Virus record (IMG/VR): IMGVR_UViG_3300042002_000093
Location: 1-25,275 of that record
Strand: one strand, 5' to 3'
Length of the DNA: 25,275 nt
Source of the DNA: a virus
The notes beneath the pieces were generated by a model. That model made no database searches and was not told the DNA's origin. It worked only from the letters and a program-made list of their open reading frames with translations. Numbering within the stretch: position 1 is the first letter of the stretch; every line of letters begins with the position of its first letter. Shown here one piece after another: positions 8,891-21,147 of the stretch. The position numbers were made by a program, and so were the translations under genes.

Positions 8891-8912
8891 GCCCGCCCCC
8901 CGCGTCCCCGGC

Positions 8913-9278
8913 TTACCTGGTCCTAGTGGCGAGCATACCCGCCGCGAGCGCAAGGGCGGCAATCACGAGGAGCCATCCGATTACGGCGGAACCGGGATAG
9001 AGGAGCGCGATGACAACGGTGAAGGGGCCCGCGGCGAGCGCGTCGAGCCCGGCGACGGCGCCCGCTACCCACACCGACACGCACCATCCACAGTTGATGA
9101 GGATGGCGATGGGCCGGGTGATGCGGCGGCGGTCGGCGCGCTCGGTGACCCACACCCGGGGCGTCTCCGTGATGGAGTCGGTGGTGACGAGTTGTGTGAG
9201 CCGGGCGGCGGCGAAGGCGGCGAAGGTGAAGGCGATGGGGAACGCGAGGAGTTGCGCCCACAGCGGGAGTGCGGTCAT
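8913..9278 (-). CDS. DUF1360-like membrane protein
   Basis: A 121-residue integral membrane protein. It has a hydrophobic N-terminal segment (about 5-26), a conserved-looking ARLTQLVTTDSITETPR loop (25-41), a basic stretch (48-55), then CGWCVSVWVAG (63-73) leading into a second segment and a third at about 84-118. The R-T-D-R loop plus a CxWC-x-VW motif matches what I remember of DUF1360, found in phages and Gram-positive genomes with unknown role. It has no clear ribosome site: ATG 9278 lies 11 bases after a hairpin. TACGCT just upstream could be a -10 element giving a nearly leaderless transcript. It sits directly before the portal gene. Confidence 0.7.
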   Translation of the reverse strand: MTALPLWAQLLAFPIAFTFAAFAAARLTQLVTTDSITETPRVWVTERADRRRITRPIAILINCGWCVSVWVAGAVAGLDALAAGPFTVVIALLYPGSAVIGWLLVIAALALAAGMLATRTR

Positions 9279-9289
9279 GGGACAAGCGT

Positions 9290-9319
9290 ACGGCCCCCGG
9301 CGGATTCGCCGGGGGCCGT
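9290..9319 (-). terminator. hairpin terminator after 9335-9601
   Basis: Perfect 13-bp stem ACGGCCCCCGGCG / CGCCGGGGGCCGT closed by a GATT tetraloop, 15 bases after the stop. It isolates the accessory block from the head operon. Confidence 0.75.
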
Positions 9320-9334
9320 CGGTTCGCGGGTGGG

Positions 9335-9601
9335 TTACGCGAGTTCGTTGTGCTGTTCGCAGTAGCGCACCGCGTCGTCGTGGTTAAGGAACCACTTGGT
9401 GACGTTGTGGTCGATGTGGATGCCCTTGTGGAGCTCGACGCGGAACCCGTTGTCGATGGGGGTTTCGGACCACTTGGGGTGCATGAACAGGTGGATGATG
9501 TGGTAGTTGCCGGTGTCGCCGGTCGCGATGTCGGCGGGGCCGTCGTGGGTGATGGTGCGGGTGAAGTCCAGGGCGGTCATGAACTCGGTGTAGTGCGGCA
9601 T
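9335..9601 (-). CDS. unknown accessory protein, 88 residues
   Basis: I do not recognise this protein. It starts MPHYTEFMTALDFTRTITHD and is rich in His, Asp and aromatic residues (HIIHLFMHPKW, HKGIHIDH, CEQHNE), with mixed alpha/beta character and no membrane segment. ATG 9601 follows a promoter module and the ribosome site GGGAG. The gene forms a single-gene cassette with its own promoter and hairpin terminator. The upstream in-frame extension only translates the promoter and is rejected. Confidence 0.8.
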   Translation of the reverse strand: MPHYTEFMTALDFTRTITHDGPADIATGDTGNYHIIHLFMHPKWSETPIDNGFRVELHKGIHIDHNVTKWFLNHDDAVRYCEQHNELA

Positions 9602-9612
9602 TTTCGTACTCC

Positions 9613-9639
9613 CTTGTTTGCGTACGAGTATCGTATCAC
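9613..9639 (-). promoter_or_regulatory. 27-bp promoter/leader module for 9335-9601
   Basis: Reads GTGATACGAT, ACTCGTA, CGCAAACAAG on the minus strand: extended -10 TGATACGAT, 7-base spacer and the common leader box at the expected transcript start. The ribosome site GGGAG follows at once. A GTTCG-N7-CGAAC dyad (9643-9659) lies at the -35 position. Confidence 0.8.
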
Positions 9640-9660
9640 GCGGTTCGGGAGGCACGAACA

Positions 9661-9686
9661 CGGCCCCCCACCGAAGCGGGGGGCCG
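9661..9686 (-). terminator. hairpin terminator after 9702-9893
   Basis: 9-bp stem CGGCCCCCC / GGGGGGCCG with an 8-base loop, between the stop of the Pro-rich ORF and the next promoter module. Confidence 0.7.
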
Positions 9687-9701
9687 TTGTCTCATGTGCT
9701 G

Positions 9702-9893
9702 CTACTGGGTGCCGCTCCACCGGCCGGGAGCGCGGGTTTCGTTGCCGCGCGGCCCGAGTCGCGGGTCACCGAACGGCATTTCCCACGGTGAGAGCACTGG
9801 CGCTTTCGGCGGGTGCGGTTGGATGTCGGATGCCCGCAAGTTCGGGCGCGGCGCCTCCGGCGGCCGGATACCGGCGGTGTCGTCGCGTGTCAC
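9702..9893 (-). CDS. proline-rich small protein (second part of amber-split gene)
   Basis: A 63-residue Pro/Arg-rich ORF from GTG 9893: MTRDDTAGIRPPEAPRPN and onward, ending GRWSGTQ. It lies in the same frame as the upstream 35-residue ORF, separated only by TAG and three sense codons, and has the same Pro-rich composition. There is no good ribosome site ahead of the GTG, so it would be made by reinitiation after the TAG, by amber readthrough, or not at all if the TAG is a recent mutation or sequencing error. A hairpin terminator follows. Function unknown; likely disordered. Confidence 0.55.
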   Translation of the reverse strand: MTRDDTAGIRPPEAPRPNLRASDIQPHPPKAPVLSPWEMPFGDPRLGPRGNETRAPGRWSGTQ

Positions 9894-9902
9894 CAGCGGC
9901 GC

Positions 9903-10010
9903 CTACGGCTTCGGCTGGACGGGGTTCGACGGCGGCGGCTTCGGTCGGTCGGTGGGGCGTCCGGTGTCGGTGCCCGGCTTCGGGTGCGATCCTGCGCCAG
10001 CTCGATACAT
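9903..10010 (-). CDS. proline-rich 35-residue leader ORF (first part of amber-split gene)
   Basis: ORF from ATG 10010 reading MYRAGAGSHPKPGTDTGRP and ending PSNPVQPKP before TAG. The ribosome site GGGAG lies 6 bases upstream, right after a promoter module, so this is the start that ribosomes should use. A nearby ATG at 10015 in another frame is only one base from GGGAG. In-frame coding continues after the TAG (GTG 9893). The whole frame without the stop would be about 102 residues. Confidence 0.6.
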   Translation of the reverse strand: MYRAGAGSHPKPGTDTGRPTDRPKPPPSNPVQPKP

Positions 10011-10025
10011 TGCATACTCCCTTTT

Positions 10026-10052
10026 GTTGTTTGCGGTCATAAAACATATCAC
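10026..10052 (-). promoter_or_regulatory. promoter/leader module (divergent copy) for 9903-10010
   Basis: GTGATATGTT, TTATGAC, CGCAAACAAC on the minus strand. The -10 differs (TATGTT) and the last base of the box is C, but the 7-base spacing is kept. It abuts the hairpin that ends the upstream transcript. Confidence 0.65.
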
Positions 10053-10080
10053 GCGGGCGGTGCGGTGACGCACCGCCCGC
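10053..10080 (-). terminator. hairpin terminator after 10087-10416
   Basis: Perfect 11-bp stem GCGGGCGGTGC / GCACCGCCCGC with a 6-base loop, 6 bases after the stop codon and directly joined to the next promoter module. Confidence 0.75.
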
Positions 10081-10086
10081 GCCCGT

Positions 10087-10416
10087 TCACCTTGCGGCGA
10101 CGAGCGATCGAATGTGGCGCTTGGCGCGCTCGGAACGTTCGGCGTAGGGGAGCGTCATGGGGTGCCCGGGGGCGCCGGTGGTGTCGAAGATGTCGGGGAG
10201 TTCGGCGATGCGGGCGATGGTGCCGACCAGTGCTTGCACTTCGGCGGCGACGTGCTCGGTGAGCGCGGCGTCGGCGTACTCGATGACGGCGCGCTGTGCG
10301 CGGACGGCTTCGGCCCACAGGATGTCGGAGCCGGGGTTGCGGGTGCACGCGCGGACGGCGACGGGGAGGTAGTCGAGCGCGGCGGAGAACTCGGTATCGG
10401 TGGTGAGGGCGGCCAT
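10087..10416 (-). CDS. unknown accessory protein, 109 residues
   Basis: Not recognised. It begins MAALTTDTEFSAALDYLPVA and looks mainly helical and soluble; it ends with the basic stretch YAERSERAKRHIRSLVAAR. ATG 10416 follows the stop of the small membrane-protein gene by 9 bases, with GGAG spaced 6 bases away, so both are on one transcript from the module at 10604-10630. A terminator follows. Pairing of a one-segment membrane peptide with a small soluble helical protein is noted, but nothing shows that they interact. Confidence 0.75.
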   Translation of the reverse strand: MAALTTDTEFSAALDYLPVAVRACTRNPGSDILWAEAVRAQRAVIEYADAALTEHVAAEVQALVGTIARIAELPDIFDTTGAPGHPMTLPYAERSERAKRHIRSLVAAR

Positions 10417-10425
10417 GGCGGACTC

Positions 10426-10593
10426 CTAGCGGTTGCGGCCAGCGCGGCGGGTGACGGCGGCGGTAGCGATGATGACGGTGGCGGCGTAGGCGCCGATGAT
10501 GGCGAAGGCGGTGGGGTGGTCGGTGATCGCGCCGGGGATGGCGGCCACGAAGTCGAAGAGGTGGGACCACGTGGTGGTGATCGTGTCGAGCAT
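10426..10593 (-). CDS. small single-pass membrane protein, 55 residues
   Basis: ORF from ATG 10593 reading MLDTITTTWSHLFDFVAAIP and ending TRRAGRNR. A hydrophobic segment at about residues 27-47 (FAIIGAYAATVIIATAAV) is followed by a basic tail, which predicts one membrane span with the C terminus inside. The ribosome site GGGAGG is placed right behind a promoter module, the best support that it is real. It is the first gene of a two-gene cassette. A holin-like or membrane-anchoring role is possible but unsupported. Confidence 0.75.
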   Translation of the reverse strand: MLDTITTTWSHLFDFVAAIPGAITDHPTAFAIIGAYAATVIIATAAVTRRAGRNR

Positions 10594-10603
10594 GGGAACC
10601 TCC

Positions 10604-10630
10604 CTTGTTTGCGTATGGGTATCGTATCAC
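10604..10630 (-). promoter_or_regulatory. 27-bp promoter/leader module for 10426-10593
   Basis: GTGATACGAT, ACCCATA, CGCAAACAAG on the minus strand. The -35 position is occupied by the stem of the preceding hairpin, so the promoter must work through its extended -10. Confidence 0.8.
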
Positions 10631-10639
10631 AAGGGGTTA

Positions 10640-10660
10640 GGGGGCCGCGTACCGGCCCCC
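10640..10660 (-). terminator. hairpin terminator after 10674-12158
   Basis: 7-bp stem GGGGGCC / GGCCCCC with a 7-base loop, 13 bases after the stop of the Cys-rich protein gene and only 9 bases ahead of the next promoter module. Confidence 0.65.
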
Positions 10661-10673
10661 TCCGATCGGATCG

Positions 10674-12158
10674 CTACGACTTCAACAGCTTCGCGTCCTC
10701 GCACGGGTACGTGACGCCCGGGTGATCCGGGGCCACGAGCTTCACCAGCTTCGAGCACGCGGCGCACACGATGAAGTCGCCGCCGCCGATGCGGGCGTTG
10801 ATGGGCCGGTGGCGCTGGGCGATGGCGTCGAGCTTCGCGCGGTACTCCCGCGCGCAGTCCTCGCACTGGCCGAACGTGCACGAGCAATTCGGGTTCGACG
10901 CGATGGGCGCGAACGACGGGGCCTCCGCATCGGCGGCGGCGAGCGCGTCGGAGGCCATGGCGGCGCGGTCGGCGTCCTCACGGGCGGCCAGCGCGGCGGC
11001 GGCCGCGGCTTCGGCGCCGTGGCGCACACACGTGGTTTCGCCGGGCTCGGCGTCGGCGTAGCACGTGAACACGGTGCACTTTCCGGCGGCGGCCGCCGCG
11101 GCAAGGAACGTTCCCCACGCGTCGTCGGCGGCGAGCCGGTCGGCGGCGGCGCCCGTCTCTTCGAAGCGGTCGGCGGCCACCATGTATGCCTTGCGGGCGT
11201 CGTCGTAGGCGGGGAGCGGCGTGCCCTCGCCGTCGCCGTGCACGGTGGCCGTCCACCATGCGGCGCCCAAGCGGGTGTTGTGCTCGACGTGCTCGCCGCG
11301 CTTGATGCACGGGTAGCCGATGCCGTCGACAGTGGTGCGCTCGCCGCAAGCCGTGTCGTCGTCCTCGATGTCGTCGCGCAAGTCGTGCTCGGGGCAGTAG
11401 GCGCGGTAGGGGTCGGTGGTGTTCTCGCACCCGAAGATGAGGCACCGGTCAATGGCGTCGGCGGCGTCGCGGTACCGCTCGTAGGCGGCTTCGGCGGCCG
11501 CGTCGGCGGCGTCGTCGGTGACGGCCGCGGCGCGGTCGGCGGTGTACTTGGCTTCGCGGTAGGCGAGTTCGTAGGCGCGCTGGCGCTCGTGCTCGGTGGG
11601 CTCGGCGTCGGCGATGGGGTCCACCCATGCGCCGTCGCCGTCGGCGGCGTCGTGGTCGAAGAACTCGAAGGATTCCACGGTGTCGTAGGCGACTTGGCGG
11701 CGGCGTCCGGTGATGAAGGCAGCGACCATCGCGCCGTCGGTGCCGGTGCCCGCGATGGTGCCCGTGATGGTTTCGCCGCTCGACGTGTAGAGCTGGACAT
11801 CGGTTCCGGCCGGGAGCGCGGCGAGGGCGGTGGCGTAGGTGGGGGCGGCCGGGGCCGCGGGGGCGGCGTTCTTGGCGTCCTCGATGGCGCGGAGGGCGGC
11901 CCGCTCGCAGTTCTTGCACAGCTTGCGGCCGGTGGCTTCGCATGAGGCGCGGGCGTCTTCGAGGGCGGCGGTGAGGTCGGCATTGGCGGTGAGGATATTC
12001 ATGCGGTGGGCGGAGCGGGTGAGGGCGCTGCAAGCGCTGTTGGCGTAGTAGCCGACGACGCCGGTGGTGGCGGAGTTGTCGGTGGCGGGGCCGGTGGTGC
12101 GCTCGGGGATGCCTTGGATGTGGGTGGTGGCCCGGGTGGCACAGATGATGTACGGCAT
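10674..12158 (-). CDS. large Cys-rich accessory protein with repeated C4-C10-C2-H fingers
   Basis: A 494-residue protein of unknown family, the largest of the accessory block. It has several probable metal sites: C73, C81, C84; C239-C244-C255-H258; C271, C284, H290, H293; C361-C366-C377-H380; C425, C427, C432, C435; and C465, C468, C486. The second and fourth have exactly the same C-x4-C-x10-C-x2-H spacing and a shared CxxF core (CLIFGC and CTVFTC), so they look like copies of one finger. Ala/Asp-rich helices separate them. A beta-rich segment spans about 115-168. ATG 12158 follows a promoter module and AGAGG. A nucleic-acid or protein-binding scaffold is inferred from the fingers only. Confidence 0.8.
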   Translation of the reverse strand: MPYIICATRATTHIQGIPERTTGPATDNSATTGVVGYYANSACSALTRSAHRMNILTANADLTAALEDARASCEATGRKLCKNCERAALRAIEDAKNAAPAAPAAPTYATALAALPAGTDVQLYTSSGETITGTIAGTGTDGAMVAAFITGRRRQVAYDTVESFEFFDHDAADGDGAWVDPIADAEPTEHERQRAYELAYREAKYTADRAAAVTDDAADAAAEAAYERYRDAADAIDRCLIFGCENTTDPYRAYCPEHDLRDDIEDDDTACGERTTVDGIGYPCIKRGEHVEHNTRLGAAWWTATVHGDGEGTPLPAYDDARKAYMVAADRFEETGAAADRLAADDAWGTFLAAAAAAGKCTVFTCYADAEPGETTCVRHGAEAAAAAALAAREDADRAAMASDALAAADAEAPSFAPIASNPNCSCTFGQCEDCAREYRAKLDAIAQRHRPINARIGGGDFIVCAACSKLVKLVAPDHPGVTYPCEDAKLLKS

Positions 12159-12172
12159 GGCCTAACCTCTTT

Positions 12173-12199
12173 CTTGTTTGCGTACTAGTACTGTAACAC
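12173..12199 (-). promoter_or_regulatory. 27-bp promoter/leader module for 10674-12158
   Basis: GTGTTACAGT, ACTAGTA, CGCAAACAAG on the minus strand, with the -10 variant TACAGT. The ribosome site AGAGG follows the box. Confidence 0.78.
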
Positions 12200-12219
12200 A
12201 CTGGGTTGAGGGCATGGCA

Positions 12220-12249
12220 CCGGCCCCCCACCATACGGTGGGGGGCCGG
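12220..12249 (-). terminator. hairpin terminator after 12261-12875
   Basis: Perfect 13-bp stem CCGGCCCCCCACC / GGTGGGGGGCCGG with a 4-base ATAC loop, ending the four-gene cassette that starts at 14478. Confidence 0.75.
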
Positions 12250-12260
12250 ATGTCCAGGGC

Positions 12261-12875
12261 TTACGCCGCGGCCACGAGCCACGCCCGAGCCGCGGCGCGG
12301 CGCCGCTCGATGCGCTCGCGCTGGCGGTTCGCGAGGGCCCGCCACTCGCGGCCGGAGCGCCGGAGCCGTTCGGGGAGCGGGGCGGCGTAGGCGGCGTAGT
12401 CGTATCCCACCAGGCGCCCGTCACGGCGGGCGCCGTTGAGTATCCCGGCGAGGAGCACGGTGCCCTCCTCGATGCGCTGTTCGATGGCCGAGTTGCGGGC
12501 GGCGTCGGCGTGGCCGTCGCGGGCGATGTCGGTGAGCGCGTCGGCAAGCTCGCCGACGGTGCTGAGGAGCCGCCACGTTCCGGCTCCGTTGGCGGTGGCG
12601 AGGTTCGAGCGGATGGCGCCGATGTGTCGCCACGCGGTGATCGCGTCGGCGTCGGCGGCGGCGAGGTGGCCGATGGAGCGCGCGCCGCGCGGGTACTCGT
12701 GGAACAGGCGGTAGTAGCGGAGACCGCCGGAGCCGAGCGGCCAGCGCGCGGCGGAGGCGATGAGGTCGGCGATGTAGGCGTGGTCGTGGCCGCGCTGTGC
12801 CAGGAGCGCGCGTTCGGCGTCGGTGACGCCGAGCGTGGCGAGTCGGGCGAACTGTGCGGAGGTGGGGAACCTCAT
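12261..12875 (-). CDS. unknown accessory protein, 204 residues, basic C terminus
   Basis: Not recognised. It starts MRFPTSAQFARLATLGVTDA and is mostly helical; the end (about 165-204) is strongly basic with many Arg (RLRRSGREW, NRQRERIERRRAAARAW) and could bind nucleic acid. It has no Cys cluster or membrane segment. ATG 12875 has AAGGA upstream, 17 bases after the preceding stop. It is the last gene of a four-gene cassette driven by the module at 14494-14520, followed by a strong hairpin. Confidence 0.75.
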   Translation of the reverse strand: MRFPTSAQFARLATLGVTDAERALLAQRGHDHAYIADLIASAARWPLGSGGLRYYRLFHEYPRGARSIGHLAAADADAITAWRHIGAIRSNLATANGAGTWRLLSTVGELADALTDIARDGHADAARNSAIEQRIEEGTVLLAGILNGARRDGRLVGYDYAAYAAPLPERLRRSGREWRALANRQRERIERRRAAARAWLVAAA

Positions 12876-12892
12876 GGGTGTGTCCTTACTGG

Positions 12893-13258
12893 CTAGAGGG
12901 CGTTGAGGTGGATAAGGGTGTAGCGGAGGCGTTCGAGTTGGTTGTCAGCGTCGGCGAAGCGGCGCCGGATGTCATCGAGGCGTTCGGGGGCGATGGTGAT
13001 GGAGTCGAAGGTGGACGCGGTGGTGAGCGCGTCGCGGAGCCGTACGTGGTCGGTGACGGCGCGCGGGAGCGCTTTGAGTGCGTGCTCGGCGTGCATCCGC
13101 TCGGCCGGGTCGGTGAGGACGGCGGCGGCGGCCACGAGGTCGGCGTAGATGTCATCGGCGACGGCTTTGATGGGCAACGCGATGGCGTCGAGCACGCCGC
13201 CGGAGGGCGGGAGCCGGTCGGCGGCCGCGGCGGCGCGGATGTAGTGGTTCACGAGCAT
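12893..13258 (-). CDS. unknown accessory protein, 121 residues
   Basis: Not recognised. It starts MLVNHYIRAAAAADRLPPSG and appears all-helical, with a charged C-terminal half (APERLDDIRRRFADADNQLE) that may form a coiled coil. ATG 13258 follows GGAAGG at a suitable distance and comes after an intercistronic hairpin (13278-13304) with no promoter module. It is therefore probably expressed by read-through from upstream or from a processed message. Confidence 0.75.
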   Translation of the reverse strand: MLVNHYIRAAAAADRLPPSGGVLDAIALPIKAVADDIYADLVAAAAVLTDPAERMHAEHALKALPRAVTDHVRLRDALTTASTFDSITIAPERLDDIRRRFADADNQLERLRYTLIHLNAL

Positions 13259-13277
13259 GTGGTGTTCCTTCCGTTCG

Positions 13278-13304
13278 GGGCCCGGCGCGGGATGCGCCGG
13301 GCCC
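13278..13304 (-). terminator. intercistronic hairpin between 13312-13947 and 12893-13258
   Basis: Perfect 11-bp stem GGGCCCGGCGC / GCGCCGGGCCC with a 5-base loop, just after a stop codon. No promoter follows before the next gene, so it is either a leaky terminator or an mRNA end-protecting/processing hairpin. Confidence 0.6.
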
Positions 13305-13311
13305 TGGTGGG

Positions 13312-13947
13312 CTACTTGGGGTCGGTGACGCCGAGGAGTTCGGCGAGCTGTTCGAGGGGGACGCGGGCGGGCGCGCCATCGCTGTATGAGTCGTAGGTGA
13401 ACCCGGAATCGGCCCCGAACCGGGCTTGCCACGCGGTGAGTGCCTGGTCGTAAACGCCGCGGAGGCGTTCGCGCTCGGCGCGCTGGTGTTCGCGCTCGGC
13501 GGCTTCGGCGGCCTCACGCCGGTCGTAGGCGGCCACGACGGGGCGCCAGCGGCCGTGAAGCTGGCGCGGTTCGATGACGGTGAGGCGCGCCCCGCCGGGG
13601 GTTTCCTTCGCGAGCGCGGCCACGGTCTCGGGGGTGAGGGTGTGGGGGTCGTCCAGGCAGGAGAACCACAGTGCCATTTCATCGGCGGAGTGGTCGCGCT
13701 TGTCGGTGTCGTAGGTGGATTCGGCGACAAAGGCGAGGAGTCCCCACCACTGGGAGTCGTACGACCCCCCGCCGCGGCGGCCGGGCCGGGTGGCCTCCGT
13801 GCGCTTCCACGTGTGGGTGTTGTTGAAGCGGTGCACGGAGTGCTCCCACAGTGTGGAGGTGTCGAGCACGATGGCGGCGCGGTAGCCGCCGGAGGCGCCC
13901 GCGCGGTAGGCGAGGAGTTCGCCGGTCTTGATTTCCTTGCGTTGCAT
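13312..13947 (-). CDS. unknown accessory protein with central coiled coil, 211 residues
   Basis: Not firmly recognised. It starts MQRKEIKTGELLAYRAGASG, a short beta-rich N-terminal domain with YRAAIVLDT, then an Arg/Gly-rich loop, a segment with SQWWGLLAF, and a charged helix at about 150-180 (RREAAEAAEREHQRAERER) that is a likely coiled coil. The opening KEIKxGxxYAY-type pattern resembles small uncharacterised actinophage proteins. ATG 13947 has GAGAGGA upstream. It lies second in the cassette, between two intercistronic hairpins. The start at 13983 is rejected because it has no ribosome site and reads into the hairpin. Confidence 0.75.
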   Translation of the reverse strand: MQRKEIKTGELLAYRAGASGGYRAAIVLDTSTLWEHSVHRFNNTHTWKRTEATRPGRRGGGSYDSQWWGLLAFVAESTYDTDKRDHSADEMALWFSCLDDPHTLTPETVAALAKETPGGARLTVIEPRQLHGRWRPVVAAYDRREAAEAAEREHQRAERERLRGVYDQALTAWQARFGADSGFTYDSYSDGAPARVPLEQLAELLGVTDPK

Positions 13948-13967
13948 GGTGATCCTCTCGGGTAGGT

Positions 13968-13997
13968 GGCCGGGCGCCCCCATCGTTGCGCCCGGCC
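13968..13997 (-). terminator. intercistronic hairpin between 14008-14478 and 13312-13947
   Basis: Perfect 10-bp stem GGCCGGGCGC / GCGCCCGGCC with a 10-base loop after the stop of the first cassette gene. It has no T-tract and no promoter follows it. Confidence 0.55.
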
Positions 13998-14007
13998 GGG
14001 TGCGGGT

Positions 14008-14478
14008 TTAGGCGGCGAGCGCGAGCATGTGGCGCTCGACTTCGGCCAGCTCGGCGTTGAGCTGTTCGAGTTCGTCTTGGCGGGCGGCGAGGGTGCGGTA
14101 TTCGGTGAGGTCGGTGGCGTCCAGGAGGGCGCGGGCGGCGGCGACGCGTTCGAGGGCGCGGGCCATGGCGCGCTTGTAGTAGTCGGTGGCGTCGATGCGG
14201 GCGGCGGCGCTCGCGGCGCGGGAGACTCGCGCCTTGGCGACGGCGGCGGCGCCGGGGATGAGGGCGTAGGAGCCGCGGGTGATGACCTCGCGCACTTCGT
14301 TGCCCCAGCGGTCGCGGGCGCCGGTGATGCGCCAGGCGATGAACCACACGCGGCCTTCGCCGGGGTCGGTGGTCACGTCGGCGATGACGCGGCGGCCGGA
14401 GTTGGGGGTGGCGAAGTAGGTGCGCGTCCAGGAGTGGGGGCGGTCGGTGGCTTTCCAGGGCTTCGCGGTCGCGATCAT
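14008..14478 (-). CDS. unknown accessory protein, 156 residues, C-terminal coiled coil
   Basis: Not recognised. It starts MIATAKPWKATDRPHSWTRT. The N-terminal part (about 20-75) looks like a small beta domain (RRVIADVTTD, GRVWFIAWRI, EVITRGSYALIP). The C-terminal half is helical and ends with heptad-like RQDELEQLNAELAEVERHML, a good coiled-coil candidate. ATG 14478 follows a promoter module with TGGAG about 9 bases upstream. First gene of a four-gene cassette. It diverges from the plus-strand gene at 14605. Confidence 0.78.
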   Translation of the reverse strand: MIATAKPWKATDRPHSWTRTYFATPNSGRRVIADVTTDPGEGRVWFIAWRITGARDRWGNEVREVITRGSYALIPGAAAVAKARVSRAASAAARIDATDYYKRAMARALERVAAARALLDATDLTEYRTLAARQDELEQLNAELAEVERHMLALAA

Positions 14479-14493
14479 CGTGGCGGCTCCATT

Positions 14494-14520
14494 CTTGTTT
14501 GCGTTTGAATAGCGTATCAC
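14494..14520 (-). promoter_or_regulatory. 27-bp promoter/leader module for 14008-14478
   Basis: GTGATACGCT, ATTCAAA, CGCAAACAAG on the minus strand, 14 bases behind the ATG. It is back-to-back with the plus-strand module at 14565-14591; about 44 bases separate them. Confidence 0.78.
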
Positions 14521-14564
14521 GGGGGAGGTGAGGGGGCGCACCGGGGGTCCGTCGACCGGAAGGC

Positions 14565-14591
14565 GTGTTACGCTAGCCTCACGCAAACAAG
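14565..14591 (+). promoter_or_regulatory. 27-bp promoter/leader module on plus strand for 14605-14931
   Basis: GTGTTACGCT, AGCCTCA, CGCAAACAAG, then GAGAGG and an ATG at 14605. It is the mirror-oriented copy of the leftward modules and shows that the element moves with the gene it serves and not with the operon. Confidence 0.8.
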
Positions 14592-14604
14592 AGAGGTTCC
14601 ATCG

Positions 14605-14931
14605 ATGAAGGTCTCATTTCACCAAGGCCCCAACGGTGTCGGCGTCGCCACCTACAACACCGACTGGCACGAGCGCGACGGCGTGCGGTTCTACCGCTCC
14701 ATCGCCGTCGAGCGCCACTTCACCCGCACACCGATGATGCGGCGCGAGGTGAGCATGTACCGCATCGTTGTCACCGAGCACCGCGCCGACGGCACCGCGC
14801 GCACCATCCGGCCCGGATACGGCATCCACACGTTCGCCGACGCGCTCGACGCGCTCGGCGCCGAGCTGCAAGCCGCCATCCGCGACGGGCTCGCCGCCAA
14901 GTCCGACTTGGAACGCCTCCCCATCGCGTAA
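14605..14931 (+). CDS. unknown rightward accessory protein, 108 residues
   Basis: One of only two plus-strand genes. It starts MKVSFHQGPNGVGVATYNTD and appears alpha/beta: beta-rich first half (GVRFYRSIAVERHF, MYRIVVTEHRADG) and a helical end (DALDALGAELQAAIRDGL). Not recognised. Support for being real is a promoter module, a good ribosome site (AGAGG) and a strong terminator downstream. It runs toward the leftward gene ending at 15069, and two facing terminators separate them. The opposite-strand ORFs here are shadows. Confidence 0.8.
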   Translation: MKVSFHQGPNGVGVATYNTDWHERDGVRFYRSIAVERHFTRTPMMRREVSMYRIVVTEHRADGTARTIRPGYGIHTFADALDALGAELQAAIRDGLAAKSDLERLPIA

Positions 14932-14953
14932 GATCACCGGCGGTAATCGACGC

Positions 14954-14989
14954 CGAAGGGGCCCCGGAGCACAAGCCGGGGCCCCTTCG
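14954..14989 (+). terminator. terminator of plus-strand gene 14605-14931
   Basis: Perfect 14-bp stem CGAAGGGGCCCCGG / CCGGGGCCCCTTCG with an 8-base loop, 22 bases after the stop. Confidence 0.75.
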
Positions 14990-15030
14990 CTGTGCCCGCC
15001 AGCGCGGCCGTGGAGGGCCGTGCACGGCGA

Positions 15031-15059
15031 AGCGCCCCCGGGGATATCCCGGGGGCGCT
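15031..15059 (-). terminator. hairpin terminator after 15069-15764
   Basis: Perfect 12-bp stem AGCGCCCCCGGG / CCCGGGGGCGCT with a 5-base loop, facing the plus-strand terminator at 14954-14989. Confidence 0.75.
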
Positions 15060-15068
15060 GGCGGTGTC

Positions 15069-15764
15069 TTAGAGGGTGACTCCGGCGCTTTCGAGGGCGT
15101 CGAGCCACCGGCGGTATGCGGCGCGCTCGCGGGCGTCGGATGAGGTGTTGTAAGCGCACGCCCACAAGCGGTCCACGGTGAAGTCCGCGAGCTGTTCGCG
15201 GGTGCCGGTGATGCGGAGGGAGCCGCGGGCGCCGCCGGGGGCGGTGTGGAGGCCGTCGAGCGCGTCGGTGTCGGCGATGATGTCGCGGAGGGCGGCGGGG
15301 AACGTGACGGTGACGGTGGGTTCGGCGTCCACGGGCGCGGGCTCCTCTTCGACGGCGGTGGTCGTGGGGCGGGGGAACTCGCCGTGAAGGTAGCGGACCC
15401 ACAGCGCCCACGCGGCGGTGTCGGCGTCGGCGTTGCCCATGCCCTCGCGGCGGAAGGTGTCGCACAGCGTGGAGTAGGTGGTGGGGTCGGCGCCGTCGTG
15501 GTCGGCGAGGGCGTGCACGAGGGCGATGCGCTCGGGGGTGGCGGTGTCGGCCGGGGCTTCGGTGCCGACCTCCGGGGCGTAGTTGAGCGAGTAGTGGAGT
15601 TCGAGGGCGCCATACATGGCGGGGTCGTGCTCGGCGAGGGCTTCGATGGCGGCGCGGAGCTGTGCTTTGTTCATCGTGGAGCGGCGGTTGATGTGGGCGG
15701 CGGTGGCGAGGCGGTAGAGGTCGGCGCGGGTGAGGGCTTCGAGGTTCATGGCGGTCGCGTTCAT
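15069..15764 (-). CDS. accessory protein with N-terminal SAP/Rho-N-like module (paralogue of 16250-16957)
   Basis: A 231-residue protein. Residues about 6-61 (from MNLEALTRADLYRLATAAHI) form a helix-extended-helix module of the SAP/Rho N-terminal type, with the conserved-looking MNKAQLRAAIEAL. By hand alignment 37 of 56 residues are identical to the start of the gene at 16250-16957. The remaining part differs: an acidic, Pro-rich linker (about 130-150) and a C-terminal domain with beta-rich VTVTFPAALRD and a helical end. ATG 15764 is preferred since GAAGGAG is 6 bases upstream; ATG 15749 is the alternative that aligns with the paralogue. Such modules often bind nucleic acid. Function unknown. 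Confidence 0.8.
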   Translation of the reverse strand: MNATAMNLEALTRADLYRLATAAHINRRSTMNKAQLRAAIEALAEHDPAMYGALELHYSLNYAPEVGTEAPADTATPERIALVHALADHDGADPTTYSTLCDTFRREGMGNADADTAAWALWVRYLHGEFPRPTTTAVEEEPAPVDAEPTVTVTFPAALRDIIADTDALDGLHTAPGGARGSLRITGTREQLADFTVDRLWACAYNTSSDARERAAYRRWLDALESAGVTL

Positions 15765-15778
15765 GGTTTTGCTCCTTC

Positions 15779-15805
15779 GTTGTTTGCGTACGAGTATCGT
15801 ATCAC
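15779..15805 (-). promoter_or_regulatory. 27-bp promoter/leader module for 15069-15764
   Basis: GTGATACGAT, ACTCGTA, CGCAAACAAC on the minus strand; the first 26 bases are identical to the modules at 9613 and 16971. The ribosome site GAAGGAG follows. Confidence 0.8.
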
Positions 15806-15819
15806 GGTCGAATCAGGGT

Positions 15820-15840
15820 GCCCGCCGGGGGGGGTCGGGC
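15820..15840 (-). terminator. weak hairpin after 15851-16189
   Basis: A short stem GCCCG / CGGGC around a G-rich loop, 10 bases after the stop and just ahead of the next promoter module. Its place matches the other terminators but the stem is only 5 bp. Confidence 0.35.
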
Positions 15841-15850
15841 GAACCGCGCC

Positions 15851-16189
15851 TCAGTCGTCCCCGAGGTGGTCGGGGTGGCCCGCGTTGTGCCGGGGGTGCC
15901 AGTACCAACCGCGGACGCGCCGGAGCGGGTCGGCGCGGTATTTCAGGTGCCCGTCATGGTGCGTGAAGGTCCGCTCGAAGCGCACCGCCGCACGCTTGGC
16001 GTGCGCCGCGCTCGTGTAGTCGGCGAACTTATACGCCATCGCAGAGGGCCGCGTGCCAGCGCGGCGGACGCGGAGGCTCGCGCCGTTGCCGTAGTCGATG
16101 ATGGAGTATGTCCAATCGCGGGTGGTGGCGACGGTGGCGAGTCCGGCGGTGGCCCATTCGATGGGGTCGGGTGTGTCGTGGTGTTCCAC
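15851..16189 (-). CDS. unknown accessory protein, 112 residues, His-rich C terminus
   Basis: Not recognised. It begins at GTG 16189 (MEHHDTPDPIEWATAGLATV) with AAAGGA about 8 bases upstream. The middle has WTYSIIDYGNGASLRVRR and AYKFADYTSAAHAKRAAVRF, suggesting a small alpha/beta fold that is basic overall. The C terminus is rich in His, Trp and Arg (GWYWHPRHNAGHPDHLGDD) and could bind metal. It lies after an intercistronic hairpin with no own promoter module, so it would depend on the transcript of 16250-16957. Confidence 0.72.
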   Translation of the reverse strand: MEHHDTPDPIEWATAGLATVATTRDWTYSIIDYGNGASLRVRRAGTRPSAMAYKFADYTSAAHAKRAAVRFERTFTHHDGHLKYRADPLRRVRGWYWHPRHNAGHPDHLGDD

Positions 16190-16213
16190 GGTGATGTCCT
16201 TTCATGTCGCGTG

Positions 16214-16242
16214 CGGCCGGGCCCCTTCGCGGGGCCCGGCCG
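16214..16242 (-). terminator. intercistronic hairpin between 16250-16957 and 15851-16189
   Basis: Perfect 12-bp stem CGGCCGGGCCCC / GGGGCCCGGCCG with a 5-base TTCGC loop, 7 bases after a stop codon. No promoter follows before the next gene. Confidence 0.6.
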
Positions 16243-16249
16243 GTGGTGG

Positions 16250-16957
16250 CTACTTGCCGTTGTCGATGACCACGACGTTGCGGGAGAACCCGCCATCGGT
16301 GCGTGAGCCGGTGCGGTCGCTCGGGATGGTGTTGCGCGACGGCTCGGGGATGGAGACGCGCACGAGCCCGACATAGAACCCCTTGCGGGCGTTGGTGGCG
16401 CGGGCCCGCGCCGGGTCCTGCGCGCTGGATTCGTTGAACCATCCGATGATCCTCGAATCGGGGTCGTCGGATTCGAGGATGGCCCACGCGTAGCCGTACT
16501 TGGTTTCGAGGTACTTGGCGGCCACGAGGTTGCCGTCAAGGTCGAACAGCGCGTGATAGTCCCACGTCCATCCGCGATCGGCGAGGGTCGCGAGGTGGTG
16601 GTAGCGGTTCGCCATCTGATTCGCGGCCCACTGCGACAGGAAACCATCGGTGTCGGAGCGCTCCTCGGATTCGATGCGGCGCGCGTGGCACTCGCGGGCC
16701 CGGCCGCGCCAGTATTCGGCGCTTTCGGTGTCGGGCGTCAACGGGTGGGCGTCGGCCGGGTCGGCGGCGGGCTCGGTGTCGGCGGTGGTGTTGAGCGTGT
16801 GCGCGAGTTCGAGCGCGGCGAACATGCCCGGGTCGGTGGTTTCGAGCGCTTCGATGGCGGCGATGAGCTGGGCTTTGTTCATGGCCGAGCGGCGGCGGAT
16901 GCGGGCGGTGGTGGCGAGGGTGTACAGCTCGGGCCGGGTGAGTTCGTGAAGGTTCAT
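16250..16957 (-). CDS. accessory protein with N-terminal SAP/Rho-N-like module (paralogue of 15069-15764)
   Basis: A 235-residue protein. Residues 1-56 (MNLHELTRPELYTLATTARI, then RRRSAMNKAQLIAAIEAL) are the same helix-extended-helix module as in the protein at 15069-15764. The rest is unrelated to that paralogue: an acidic linker (about 57-80), a helical part with EYWRGRARECHARRIESEER, and a C-terminal domain with LFDLDGNLVAAKYLETKYG, SRIIGWFNE and VGLVRVSIPEP that looks beta-rich. Not recognised. ATG 16957 follows a promoter module; GGGAT is a modest ribosome site. A shared head with different tails suggests a common docking or nucleic-acid-binding module. Confidence 0.8.
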   Translation of the reverse strand: MNLHELTRPELYTLATTARIRRRSAMNKAQLIAAIEALETTDPGMFAALELAHTLNTTADTEPAADPADAHPLTPDTESAEYWRGRARECHARRIESEERSDTDGFLSQWAANQMANRYHHLATLADRGWTWDYHALFDLDGNLVAAKYLETKYGYAWAILESDDPDSRIIGWFNESSAQDPARARATNARKGFYVGLVRVSIPEPSRNTIPSDRTGSRTDGGFSRNVVVIDNGK

Positions 16958-16970
16958 TTCAACATCCCAT

Positions 16971-16997
16971 CTTGTTTGCGTACGAGTATCGTATCAC
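16971..16997 (-). promoter_or_regulatory. 27-bp promoter/leader module for 16250-16957
   Basis: GTGATACGAT, ACTCGTA, CGCAAACAAG on the minus strand, identical to the module at 9613. It is also preceded by a related GTTC/GAAC dyad at 17001-17017, at the same distance as in the 9613 copy. Confidence 0.8.
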
Positions 16998-17018
16998 GAC
17001 GTTCGGAGGGCATGAACA

Positions 17019-17052
17019 GGGGCCCCCACCTTCACGACTCGGCGGGGGCCCC
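17019..17052 (-). terminator. hairpin terminator after 17070-17861
   Basis: Perfect 9-bp stem GGGGCCCCC / GGGGGCCCC with a 16-base loop, 17 bases after the stop and just ahead of the next promoter. Confidence 0.7.
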
Positions 17053-17069
17053 GTCTCGGGAGGCAAGCT

Positions 17070-17861
17070 CTACACGGTGCCCGTCATGGTGCGGCGCGCG
17101 GCGTAGCTGGCGGCCGCTGTGCGCCGGTCGCGGGCGAAGGCGGCGGCCATGTCCGCGCGGGCGCGGTCCAAGCGCGTCGCCAGCGCGGTCATGATGTCGT
17201 CGGCGACGGCGGCCGCGTCGTCGCCGATGGGGGCGGCGAGCGCGCACCGATGGCGCATGTAGTGCGGGAGCGCCACGAGGAACGCGGTGTAGGCGGCGGG
17301 GGCGAGCCGGGCGACGCCGTAGCGGGTGTCGGCGCCGTCGGCGACGGCGGCGGCGCGGTGGACGTTGCCGAGCGCGTCACCGGCGCCGGTGAAGGCGCCC
17401 ACGAGGCCGCGGTGCGCGGACTCGGTGTCGTCGAGCGCCGACAGGAGCCCGATGGATTCGGGGTAGAGCGTGATGATGGCGAGGTGCGCGTCGAAGCGCT
17501 GGACATCGCACGCGGCGAGGTAGCGGTCACGCGCGGAGAGCACGGTGTCAGCGCGGGTGATGGCGTCGCCGTAGCGGGTGAGCGCGGCGCGCATGGCGTC
17601 GGCGTAGTCGCCGTGGTTGGCCGGGTCGGTGCGGCGGGTGTGCATCCGGTCGATGAAGTGCTTTTCGATGACGGTGAGGGCGGCGTCCAGCTGGGCGTCG
17701 GTCATGGCCTCGTGCTCGTGGCGTCCGCTGGTGGCGGGGCCGTCGGTGGTACGGGCGTTCTGGGTGCGCACGATGGAGGTGAACTCGCGGCGGAGGGCGG
17801 CGCCGTCGTCGTCGTGGCGGTCGGCGAGTCGGACGGTGGGCGCGGGTCGGCTTGCGGTCAT
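17070..17861 (-). CDS. accessory protein, 263 residues (paralogue of 17872-18822)
   Basis: Not recognised as a known family. It starts MTASRPAPTVRLADRHDDDG and is mainly helical and Ala-rich, with no membrane segment. A block YPESIGLLSALDDTESAH (133-150) matches YPGAAPLLSVLDDIEDAY (130-147) of the upstream gene at 10 of about 20 positions and the same place in the chain, so the two are probably diverged duplicates. ATG 17861 lies 10 bases after the upstream stop, with only a weak ribosome site (AAGTAGG), so translation may be coupled. A terminator follows. The longer ORF reaching 18038 is a shadow. Confidence 0.75.
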   Translation of the reverse strand: MTASRPAPTVRLADRHDDDGAALRREFTSIVRTQNARTTDGPATSGRHEHEAMTDAQLDAALTVIEKHFIDRMHTRRTDPANHGDYADAMRAALTRYGDAITRADTVLSARDRYLAACDVQRFDAHLAIITLYPESIGLLSALDDTESAHRGLVGAFTGAGDALGNVHRAAAVADGADTRYGVARLAPAAYTAFLVALPHYMRHRCALAAPIGDDAAAVADDIMTALATRLDRARADMAAAFARDRRTAAASYAARRTMTGTV

Positions 17862-17871
17862 GTCGGGTTGC

Positions 17872-18822
17872 CTACTTTCGGTTGGGTTCGCGGATGAGGA
17901 TCGTGAGGCCGTCGGCCTTGACGGTGGTGCCGAAGGCGAGGACACGGGCGGCGGCAACGCTTTCGGGGTCGGCTCCCTTCTTTTCGAGGACTTCGGCGGC
18001 GGCCGCGCGGGCGCTGTCCAGGTCGGGGAACTCGGCATAGGAGGGTTTGTTCAGCGTCTTGTAGCGCGTGTACGCGTTGCCGTATCCGCGGGCGTTGCGT
18101 TCGGCGTCGGTGGTGGCCGGGATGACCACGAGCGCGACGGGGCCGGTGTGCGCGGCCGGGGCGAGGTAGTCGCGGGCGAGAATCGCACGGGCGGTGTCGA
18201 GGCTGTCGGAGGCTTCGGCGAGTTCGGTGGCGCGGTCGGAGACATCGAGGGTGATGGACAGGAGCGTCCGGTGGTGGACGCTGGCGAGGTAGGTGCCGAA
18301 GGCGTCGCCGACGGTGCCGCCGAACATGGCGGTGAGTGCGTTGATGGTCCGCGCGAGGCGTTCGGCTCCGGCGCCGGAGGCGTAGGCGTCTTCGATGTCG
18401 TCCAGGACCGACAGGAGCGGGGCGGCGCCGGGGTAGGTGACCAGTGTGCCGATGTAGGCGGCGGCCCGGCCGGTGGCGCTGGTGGCGAGTACGGCGGCGC
18501 GCCGGTTGTCGTGGAGGTTGGCCGCGATGGCGGCTCCGGCGTGGCGGTGGTACTCGTTCACCGACCAGGCGAGAGCGTCGTGGAACTTCGCCTCCACACC
18601 CCGGCGCGCAACGGTGTCGGGGGCGATGCGTGCGAGTGATTCGATGATGCGTTCGAGGGCGCCACGGCGGTCGGCTTCGGTGTCGTATCGGTTGGTGTGG
18701 GTCGGGGCGAGGCGCCCGGGGTGGGCGTCGCGCATTCCCTCGTGGGCGATGTCCTGGATTTCGATGAACAGCGCTTCGACGGCCATGTGTGCGGCCGGGG
18801 TGAGCTGGTCGGTGTCGCTCAT
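17872..18822 (-). CDS. accessory protein, 316 residues (paralogue of 17070-17861)
   Basis: Starts MSDTDQLTPAAHMAVEALFI. The first 230 residues are helical, with the YPGAAPLLSVLDDIEDAY block shared with the next gene. The C-terminal part after about residue 235 is different: ALVVIPATTDAERNARGYGN, a segment YAEFPDLDSARAAAAEVLEKKG resembling a small alpha/beta unit, and a beta-rich end (VLAFGTTVKADGLTILIRE). Not recognised. It is first in a two-gene cassette, with ATG 18822 after a promoter module and GGGAGG. It is the first gene after the terminase. Confidence 0.76.
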   Translation of the reverse strand: MSDTDQLTPAAHMAVEALFIEIQDIAHEGMRDAHPGRLAPTHTNRYDTEADRRGALERIIESLARIAPDTVARRGVEAKFHDALAWSVNEYHRHAGAAIAANLHDNRRAAVLATSATGRAAAYIGTLVTYPGAAPLLSVLDDIEDAYASGAGAERLARTINALTAMFGGTVGDAFGTYLASVHHRTLLSITLDVSDRATELAEASDSLDTARAILARDYLAPAAHTGPVALVVIPATTDAERNARGYGNAYTRYKTLNKPSYAEFPDLDSARAAAAEVLEKKGADPESVAAARVLAFGTTVKADGLTILIREPNRK

Positions 18823-18834
18823 TGGTGAGCCTCC

Positions 18835-18861
18835 CTTGTTTGCGGACGTATATCGTAACAC
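18835..18861 (-). promoter_or_regulatory. 27-bp promoter/leader module for 17872-18822
   Basis: GTGTTACGAT, ATACGTC, CGCAAACAAG on the minus strand, followed by GGGAGG. A GGTTC-ACG-GAACC dyad (18872-18884) lies upstream between the terminase stop and the promoter. No strong terminator separates it from the terminase gene. Confidence 0.8.
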
Positions 18862-18889
18862 GACGCTGGTGGGTTCCGTGAACCGGCCC

Positions 18890-20524
18890 TCACCCGAGCG
18901 GGGACAGCCCTTGCCGTGGCAGGCGGGCACCGCGCGAGGGCCGCGAGGCCGCGGCCGGGGCGCCCCCGGCGGCATCGATCCAATAGGCCATGACCACGGC
19001 GTCCCCGTAGTCCGGGCTCCGGCCGAGCCGCTTGATGAGGTCTTCCTTTTTCTCCATACGGAGCTTCGGCGGGATGCCCGTGAGCGGTTCCAGCATCTTC
19101 GGCGTGGTGAGGTCGGCGGTGAGCTGTTCGTGCGGCGGGAGCATGATGGCGGCGCCGGTGTCGGGGTTCAACAGCTCGCGGAGGTGCCAGTAGGCGGCCG
19201 TGCGGGTGTTCGCGAACCCGAACGAGCGGTCACCGGTGCGGCGCTTCGTGGACGCCGACCCGGTGTACTTGATGACGCGGTAGCCGAGTTCATCGAGCCG
19301 CGAGGCCACACCCGACCCCACCCCGATCATGTCGACGGCCACCGGCGCCGACTTCACCTCCGCCTTGCGCACCGTGTTCTGTACCTTCGCCGTCACCCCC
19401 ATCACGGAGTTCCCTTGCGTGTAGACGAGTTCGACGGTGTGCACGCCGACGCGGCGCGCGATCACGGAGGCGTCGGCGCCGGTCGTCGCCACGTCCACGC
19501 CGTACGACGGGAGGCCGTCGGCCACCGGGCTCCCGAGCGCGGCCCACGCCGCGAACGCCTCGTGACCGGTCGGCACGTCGGCGACGGACTTGGGGCGCCC
19601 GGCCGCGCGCCAGGCGTGCCAGCGCTCCATAGCCGCCTCCACCCACGACAACGGGATGATCGCGTTCTCATCATCGGCGGCGAAGTCGCCTTCCACCTGT
19701 TGGCGGTACAGCGCCGAGTCGGTGCCCCAGTACTGCGCGCGGCGCTCGACGGACGCGAGGGACACGCGCCCGGCGGCCACGGCGTCGGACTTCGTGACGT
19801 GCACGGCGCGCCACCCCGCAACGCGGCCCTGGTGAATCTGGTAGAACCGCCCGGCCGGGGGGCCCGGGGTGGAGAGCGCGAGCACGTATTGGCCGTCTTC
19901 GCCGGTGAGCGAGCCTTCGAGCGCGTCGAATATCGAGTCGGGCACCGACTTCGCTTCATCGATGATGATGAGTAGCTGGTCGGCGTGCGCGGATTCGATC
20001 ATGTCGGGGTTGCGGGCGACGGCGGCGAACGCGGAGCCGTGCGGGAGCTGGATGGCCGCGGTGAGGAGTTCCCGTTCGGGCCGGAGCGGGAGGTAGAGGC
20101 CGCCGACGCGGGGCGCCCACTTGTGGACTTCGGGCCACAGCGCCCGGTAGAGGTGCCGGAACACGCCCGCCGTCGTCAGAATCTTCCAGTCCTGGCCGAG
20201 CGCTTCGCGGGTGCGCGCGAACCAATGCACCGCGGCGCTCGCAATGGTCGTCTTGCCCATGCCGCGGGGGCCGCGGACGGCGGCGCGGCCGTGCTCGGCG
20301 AGCGCGTCGAGCACGTCGAGTTGGTAGGCGGCGAACTCGCGGCCGGGCGGCATGGTGATGCACTCGCGACAGAACGCCGACGGGCGCGCGGCGTACAGCT
20401 CGTGGCGCTCGCGGGAGGCGGCGCCGCGGACGGCGGCCGCGCGCGCTTCGAGGTCGGCGAGGAGTTGCAACCGGCCGAGCTGGGAGCGCGCGAGTTCGAG
20501 GCGCCTATGGAGTGTCTGTTCCAT
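18890..20524 (-). CDS. terL: terminase large subunit
   Basis: A 544-residue DNA-packaging motor. The ATPase part has Walker A GPRGMGKTT (85-93), Walker B LLIIIDE (184-190) with its catalytic Glu, and a following STPGPP segment (218-223) in the place of the coupling motif. The RNase H-like nuclease part has GVDVATTGADASV (342-354) with D344, VAVDMIGVGSG (395-405) with D398, and SPDYGDAVVMAYW (503-515) with D506 and D509, a full set of acidic residues. I start it at ATG 20524, which overlaps the small subunit gene by 20 bases; the 34-residue longer start is a shadow. It is separated from the portal by about 10 kb of accessory genes, which is unusual. Confidence 0.93.
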   Translation of the reverse strand: MEQTLHRRLELARSQLGRLQLLADLEARAAAVRGAASRERHELYAARPSAFCRECITMPPGREFAAYQLDVLDALAEHGRAAVRGPRGMGKTTIASAAVHWFARTREALGQDWKILTTAGVFRHLYRALWPEVHKWAPRVGGLYLPLRPERELLTAAIQLPHGSAFAAVARNPDMIESAHADQLLIIIDEAKSVPDSIFDALEGSLTGEDGQYVLALSTPGPPAGRFYQIHQGRVAGWRAVHVTKSDAVAAGRVSLASVERRAQYWGTDSALYRQQVEGDFAADDENAIIPLSWVEAAMERWHAWRAAGRPKSVADVPTGHEAFAAWAALGSPVADGLPSYGVDVATTGADASVIARRVGVHTVELVYTQGNSVMGVTAKVQNTVRKAEVKSAPVAVDMIGVGSGVASRLDELGYRVIKYTGSASTKRRTGDRSFGFANTRTAAYWHLRELLNPDTGAAIMLPPHEQLTADLTTPKMLEPLTGIPPKLRMEKKEDLIKRLGRSPDYGDAVVMAYWIDAAGGAPAAASRPSRGARLPRQGLSPLG

Positions 20525-21005
20525 CGGTGTCCGCTTGGGGGTCGTGCTCGGCGAGGAACGCCGACAGCTCGGCAATGCGCGTCTCCACCGCGTCGAAGCT
20601 GATTTCATGCTTGACGGGCTGGTCAAGGCCCATCATGCGGGAGCGGTGGGCACTGATCTTGAGTACCGTCTCGATGGCCTTGAGTGCCACGGTGGGCTCG
20701 GGGAACGCGGTGTGCTGCCACGCGAGCGTCTGGAGCGTGTCGAGCCGCGCCAGTTCGACGCGGCGGGCGGTGTCGACGGTCTGTTCATTCTCCGCGGTGA
20801 TCGCGTCGAGCGCGCGGTGGTAGTCGGCGTTGGCGTGCTGGCGGGAGCCGTAGCCGAGCGCTTCGGCGATGGTCTGGAAATCATGCCCTTGCAGGCGCAT
20901 CTTGAGGTTTTTGGTCTGGCGCTCGCGGCGTTCGGCTTCGCGTTGTTCGCGTTCGGCCTTCGCCGAGCGGCGCGCGCGCGTGGATTGGCGCTTGTCGCCG
21001 CCCAT
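20505..21005 (-). CDS. terS: terminase small subunit
   Basis: A 166-residue protein overlapping the large terminase gene. The N terminus is very basic (RQSTRARRSAKAEREQREAE), followed by a helix-turn-helix-like segment GHDFQTIAEALGYGSRQHAN (39-58) for recognising the packaging site, then long helices for ring assembly. The acidic tail may contact the large subunit. The ATG at 21005 has GGGAGG upstream. The leader carries a 9-bp stem-loop (21033-21060). The call is supported by the HTH-plus-helices layout and the overlap with terL. Confidence 0.82.
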   Translation of the reverse strand: MGGDKRQSTRARRSAKAEREQREAERRERQTKNLKMRLQGHDFQTIAEALGYGSRQHANADYHRALDAITAENEQTVDTARRVELARLDTLQTLAWQHTAFPEPTVALKAIETVLKISAHRSRMMGLDQPVKHEISFDAVETRIAELSAFLAEHDPQADTDGTDTP

Positions 21006-21120: not shown

Positions 21121-21147
21121 GTGTTACGGTACTAGCGCGCAAACAAG
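21121..21147 (+). promoter_or_regulatory. 27-bp promoter/leader module on plus strand for 21161-21301
   Basis: GTGTTACGGT, ACTAGCG, CGCAAACAAG, then AGAGGAG and ATG 21161. Second rightward copy, divergent from the terminase promoter region. Confidence 0.8.

Follow-up and report, generated by a model that had tools for sequence, protein, structure and literature searches.

A SAP/Rho_N-like N-terminal module on two neighbouring phage proteins with unrelated bodies

Two nearby genes of a phage encode proteins that begin alike and continue differently. How did a common N terminus come to head two different bodies, and what may it do there? We analysed the locus within a 25,275-base IMG/VR virus record, referred to below in its whole length as the window, which derives from a high-GC tailed phage. 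Recognised genes in the window are those for terminase, portal, head morphogenesis, major head proteins and an Erf-like annealing protein, and the nearest cultured terminases, from Streptomyces and Actinoplanes phages, are ~41-46% identical. The two genes, g1 (protein P0001) and g2 (protein P0002), belong to a block of small unknown genes that lies between terminase (18890-20626) and portal (7010-8962). Terminase and portal are separated by ~10 kb (8962-18890) of mostly small unknown genes, several with a start element of their own. An AAGGAG-type ribosome-binding site lies 8 nt 5' of the first ATG of g1. The parts of the locus are as follows.

15069-15764 (read from 15764 to 15069), minus strand: g1, encoding P0001 of 231 aa, with a MNATA leader, a SAP/Rho_N-like module and body 1
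15750-15764, minus strand: MNATA, five codons ahead of the module in g1
15570-15749, minus strand: SAP/Rho_N-like module of P0001, residues 6-65, with predicted helices at 13-22 and 33-46 and a structural match to the FAN1 SAP
15363-15548, minus strand: three-helix repeat of body 1, residues 73-134
15072-15320, minus strand: C-terminal alpha/beta domain of body 1, residues 149-231
15851-16189, minus strand: ORF of 112 aa with a GTG start, between g1 and g2
16250-16957 (read from 16957 to 16250), minus strand: g2, encoding P0002 of 235 aa, with a SAP/Rho_N-like module and a phrog_5855 body
16778-16957, minus strand: SAP/Rho_N-like module of P0002, residues 1-60
16253-16732, minus strand: body 2, residues 76-235, family phrog_5855

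An earlier note on this DNA had counted 37 identities among 56 N-terminal residues and had found the C-terminal regions dissimilar. Both statements hold. Aligned without gaps, P0001 residues 6-61 and P0002 residues 1-56 show exactly this count, and the module alignment scores 170, compared with 24.6 +/- 4.7 for shuffled sequences (maximum 46 in 5000 shuffles). The two bodies align with a score of 29, where shuffled sequences average 30.6 and 62% of them score as high, and hhalign detected no residual similarity between body 1 and body 2 (E 0.54). Full-length P0001 and P0002 share 42/70 identities by BLASTP (E 4e-19), and are the only related pair in the window (self-BLAST of ORFs of at least 60 aa, E 1e-3, low-complexity filter on). 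Ordinary divergence over the full length, the alternative that the note had named as its test, is excluded by sequence, and the two predicted folds do not suggest it either. A SAP/Rho_N-like N-terminal module on two proteins with unrelated bodies is thereby supported. The further idea, that the module might head many unrelated bodies, was not borne out, as we found it only on P0001, P0002 and an orthologue of P0002. With each 60-aa module, tblastn at E up to 10 returned weak partial matches only (best E 0.03; 12 and 16 records), and viral and genome scans returned a contig discussed below, G001, and one Ku-like protein, nothing else. At this sensitivity, the collections thus do not show a wide range of bodies behind the module.

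What does the module resemble? All three copies match Pfam Rho_N (PF07498) below its cut-off (best E 2.6e-4), P0002 reaching 17.7 and P0001 13.2 bits where the whole-protein gathering cut-off is 24.9 bits; one of the three matches FANC_SAP (PF18081; E 0.013), P0002 scoring 13.5 bits where 23 bits are needed. In the PDB, the closest sequence is that of transcription terminator Rho (7oqh, E 0.062). A genome collection of 84,980 species yielded a single match, to the helix-loop-helix at the C terminus of a Ku-like protein, which we take to be a Ku from its sequence features. For Streptomyces Ku, helix-extended-helix or SAP extensions have been described (PMC5124664, PMC11936186). In predicted models of moderate confidence (P0001, mean pLDDT 73.5, pTM 0.39, module confidence ~60-85; P0002, mean pLDDT 82.2, pTM 0.62), both modules form the two helices with an extended loop that mark SAP/HeH/Rho_N-like domains, at 13-22 and 33-46 in P0001 and at 8-21 and 28-41 in P0002. 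A single protein, human FAN1, takes the first eight places among structural matches of the P0001 model, each time with its SAP domain (Z 6.8-8.1, rmsd 1.8-3.0, over 57-65 residues within residues 1-67 of the model), and the next protein follows at Z 5.8. The best FAN1 match (Z 8.1, rmsd 2.1, 63 residues, 21% identity) has a score that common helical arrangements can also attain, at ~8. Charge reversal at four basic residues of the fission-yeast domain is described as giving a null-like mutant, and the FAN1 SAP as binding DNA (PMC4045212, PMC12078616).

The window modules thus share with the Rho N terminus, the bacterial Ku C-terminal extension and the FAN1 SAP a helix-loop-helix pattern, a conserved basic loop and sub-threshold Rho_N and FANC_SAP matches, and, like these, they are an add-on domain fused to differing bodies. 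They differ in falling below the curated cut-offs and in a third predicted helix after the core (48-61 in P0001, 45-58 in P0002). They also sit N-terminally, whereas the closest phage matches, Gordonia phage Hanem gp76 and Pseudomonas phage ZRG1, carry such a domain C-terminally. The likeness to SAP and Rho_N domains, in sequence and in predicted fold, makes a putative nucleic-acid tether the most likely and best-supported role of the module, with DNA as its presumed ligand.

Alternatively, the module could be a docking or dimerisation helix pair that brings P0001 and P0002 to a common protein partner or to each other. Some related helix-extension-helix and LEM domains bind proteins, the third helix lies beyond the two-helix SAP core, and the net charge of the modules is not positive, with 6 basic and 6 acidic residues. 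However, the closest matches in sequence and fold are all nucleic-acid-related, and the RRSxMxKAQL segment of loop and helix 2 is kept in all three copies, with RR and K in the inter-helix loop. We consider docking possible, though on the unlikely side.

The bodies have different distributions. Residues 55-234 of P0002 match positions 35-215 of the 220-position phrog_5855 profile (E 1.1e-38), which places P0002 in this family, widespread in phages and usually a stand-alone protein of ~150-175 aa. Its actinobacteriophage members (e.g. Kumao gp108, Muddy gp37, Brusacoram gp68) have the signature SDTDGFLSQWA in common with P0002. Complete proteins of 166-172 aa with no N-terminal extension are found in the cultured phages Kumao, Muddy, Horseradish and Brusacoram. 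The phrog_5855 proteins compared differ from P0002 in being without the SAP/Rho_N-like module, and those of TG1, Tonitrus and JustBecause begin with N-terminal extensions of another kind. By tblastn the body occurs in 134 phage records, none of which reaches 80% coverage of P0002. An IMG/VR alignment search for relatives of the body obtained 132, of which 80 were kept; one locus, L086, is truncated 5'. For 65 of the 80 loci, the highest-scoring start falls no more than 25 residues from the match. The module profile finds one locus, L033 of G001 (E 6.5e-41; next 0.83), and this match is by construction, as the G001 module itself supplied one of the profile's three rows.

Structure and annotation searches with body 2 returned little beyond the family itself. 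The phrog_5855 profile had no sequence match in the PDB, and Foldseek with P0002 gave nothing in the PDB at E <= 0.001 and four viral models at that threshold, those of TG1 and Kumao, known phrog_5855 proteins, and two nameless ones. DUF2399 matched 2 of 41 family members (best E 0.01), a weak lead that we left unused, and no publication naming both Muddy and gp37 was found in the literature searched. One further locus, L084 (2330-4777), encodes an 815-aa phage protein with its phrog_5855 part near the N terminus and a long unknown C-terminal part, which has no Pfam match at E <= 0.1. An impression by eye that L084 shares the C-terminal domain of P0001 was rejected, as it is absent from the profile-search matches at E <= 1. 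That so large a family is tied, in one lineage, to a nucleic-acid-binding-like domain hints at work on or near DNA.

Body 1 is far rarer. P0001 matched none of 50,697 phage records at E <= 1, and Foldseek against viral models gave nothing at E <= 0.001. Weak leads to HalOD1 (Pfam), to HTH-like folds over residues 67-134 and to KH-like folds over residues 148-228 (Z ~4-5) were not used. Neither protein has an NCBIfam match, and PADLOC assigned 0 families; nothing suggests toxins or defence effectors. P0001-type genes occur in two IMG/VR contigs, G001 (locus L005) and G002 (locus L004), so that three are known including that of the window; further relatives sought through the promoter element described below yielded G001 only.

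These contigs permit a direct comparison of g1 with and without the module. In G001, the g1 homologue lies directly behind the orthologue of P0002, in the same place as in the window; it has its own promoter and no module, while the orthologue, 64% identical to P0002 over its full length, does carry one. The 112-aa ORF between g1 and g2 has no counterpart in this syntenic relative, and PHROGs, NCBIfam, Pfam and the IMG/VR scan yielded nothing related to it. In G002, another ORF precedes the g1 homologue. The g1 homologues of both contigs start with MNIT or MNTTNAT and run straight into DTATPERI; in P0001, module and linker sit between MNATA and DTATPERI. At the junction, 26 nt are identical in the three phages, homology is absent just upstream, and the homology of the body DNA begins abruptly at codon 73. 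MNATA is possibly a remnant of the original g1 start, a suggestive resemblance to the starts of the relatives. The relatives also carry the three-helix repeat twice (L005:5344-5988, 137 and 39 bits; L004:427-1053, 138 and 22 bits), compared with once in the window; the second repeat was either lost in the window lineage or gained in the relatives.

Both bodies thus occur elsewhere without the module, which argues for a graft onto existing genes and not for a fixed module with swapped bodies. The module was most likely added to pre-existing genes, the bodies being the older part. For g1, the neighbouring genes bear on the order of events. Identities of orthologous neighbours (window-G001/window-G002/G001-G002) are 76/51/52, 77/69/62, 76/58/57 and 44/39/35%, and those of body 1 are 71/66/67%; the exception is the gene at 8913-9278 (61/64/73%), for which G001 is nearer to G002 and which weakens the parsimony argument. 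Because the window is nearest to G001 in four of five comparably aligned neighbours and in body 1, one gain of the module by g1 is simpler than two losses.

The modules themselves are about equally distant from one another. DNA identity is 74% between g1 and g2, 77% between g1 and G001 and 75% between g2 and G001, with dN of 0.26-0.31 and dS of 0.29-0.37, a star-like pattern that resolves no donor. The copy would then date back to the divergence of these phages, or would have come from a third phage; recent copying from the adjacent gene is unsupported. The 5' leader of g1 is slightly closer to the g2 leader of G001 (score 9) than to those of its own orthologues (5 and 2), so that promoter, leader and module may conceivably have been transferred into g1 as a block.

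These ages also fit another history, in which g1 had the module from the outset and each relative lost it separately. An old duplication is consistent with copies as old as the split of the window and G001 (74-77% DNA identity in all pairs), and the comparison extends over three P0001-type genes in all. However, both relatives are without the module at the same boundary, the neighbours mostly group the window with G001 and so require two separate losses, and the 102 nt of intergenic DNA upstream in G001 contain no module remnant. We regard an ancestral module in g1 as doubtful.

A different origin had been proposed in the earlier note, on the ground that the two genes have almost identical promoter modules: promoter and N-terminal module would have been duplicated as one cassette before the effector part was exchanged. 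The elements concerned are these.

15780-15805, minus strand: start-associated promoter-like element of P0001, 26 bp
16972-16997, minus strand: start-associated promoter-like element of P0002, 26 bp
9614-9639, minus strand: third identical 26-bp copy, ahead of an unrelated gene
10605-10630, 12174-12199, 14495-14520 and 18836-18861: further copies of the element
14565-14590 and 21121-21146, plus strand: further copies of the element

The elements before g1 and g2 are indeed identical (26/26), but they are not specific to the pair, since the same 26-mer precedes a third gene and the element has nine sites in the window. A script search for CGCAAAC[AG] with flanks gave ten window sites, nine matching the 26-mer at 20-26 positions and one at 18, each with an ATG 11-16 nt downstream (that at 10613 judged from the printed sequence). 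The element has an extended -10-like form, GTGnTACnnTA...CGCAAACAAG, followed by a ribosome-binding site and ATG, ahead of single genes. Similar elements precede genes in G001 and G002, along with two sites matching only 11 and 12 of the 26 positions. Judged from these sequences, the repeated element is a start-associated promoter-like system of this phage group's own. It recalls the start-associated sequences of Cluster K mycobacteriophages (PMC3203893), in which a short conserved element likewise lies just upstream of many small genes. The consensus described there is GGGATAGGAGCCC, which the window elements do not match; compared by eye, the window element ends in CGCAAACAAG after TGnTACnnTA.

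An element that precedes nine window genes and many in the two relatives cannot serve to show that promoter and module were duplicated together. The identity of the two 26-mers and the slight likeness of the g1 leader to the G001 g2 leader would agree with a cassette, but the g1 relatives possess the element without the module, a different leader and five extra codons lie between the g1 promoter and its module, and both bodies stand alone elsewhere. Duplication followed by effector exchange is thus not supported, given an element found phage-wide and a syntenic g1 without the module, and we judge it improbable. That the module is a reusable DNA-tethering tag, spreading from one accessory gene to its neighbour and letting small accessory proteins from the terminase-portal interval ride phage DNA, possibly into the capsid and the next host, seems to us very improbable.

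The explanation that we prefer overall, with a probability of about 60%, is that P0001 and P0002 are two-part fusions, each consisting of a module of 56-60 residues, an unstructured Ala/Pro/Glu-rich linker and an unrelated, older phage protein, and that the module was grafted in this lineage and serves as a nucleic-acid tether, the bodies presumably acting on DNA. The anatomy of the fusions and the module-less forms can be read directly from the sequences. The module would have been copied between the neighbouring g1 and g2, or taken from a g2-type gene of another phage, and inserted near the 5' end of a g1 that already had its own start-associated promoter; g1 in the same lineage may have lost its second three-helix repeat. 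Once in place, the module may act as a weak, largely sequence-independent tether that raises the local concentration of the body on phage or host DNA, a role modelled on the one proposed for SAP domains in Ku and FAN1.

The pair is a clear but fairly ordinary case of domain shuffling in phage proteins. No publication on this module fusion was found in the literature searched. Its value is a near before-and-after view of domain grafting, with the same g1 place present with and without the module in close relatives and a sharp DNA junction between. Domain mosaicism is described as well documented in phage proteins (PMC10684548), and the window pair shares with such cases the presence of one fragment on otherwise unrelated proteins. 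With the chimeric nuclease of ICP1, described as having a borrowed DNA-binding domain (PMC8263062), it shares the joining of a DNA-binding domain, DNA-binding-like in the window, to another body. It differs from the mosaicism cases and the ICP1 nuclease, as described in these sources, in that donor-type and recipient-type genes are neighbours in one phage and that module-less forms are found in close relatives.
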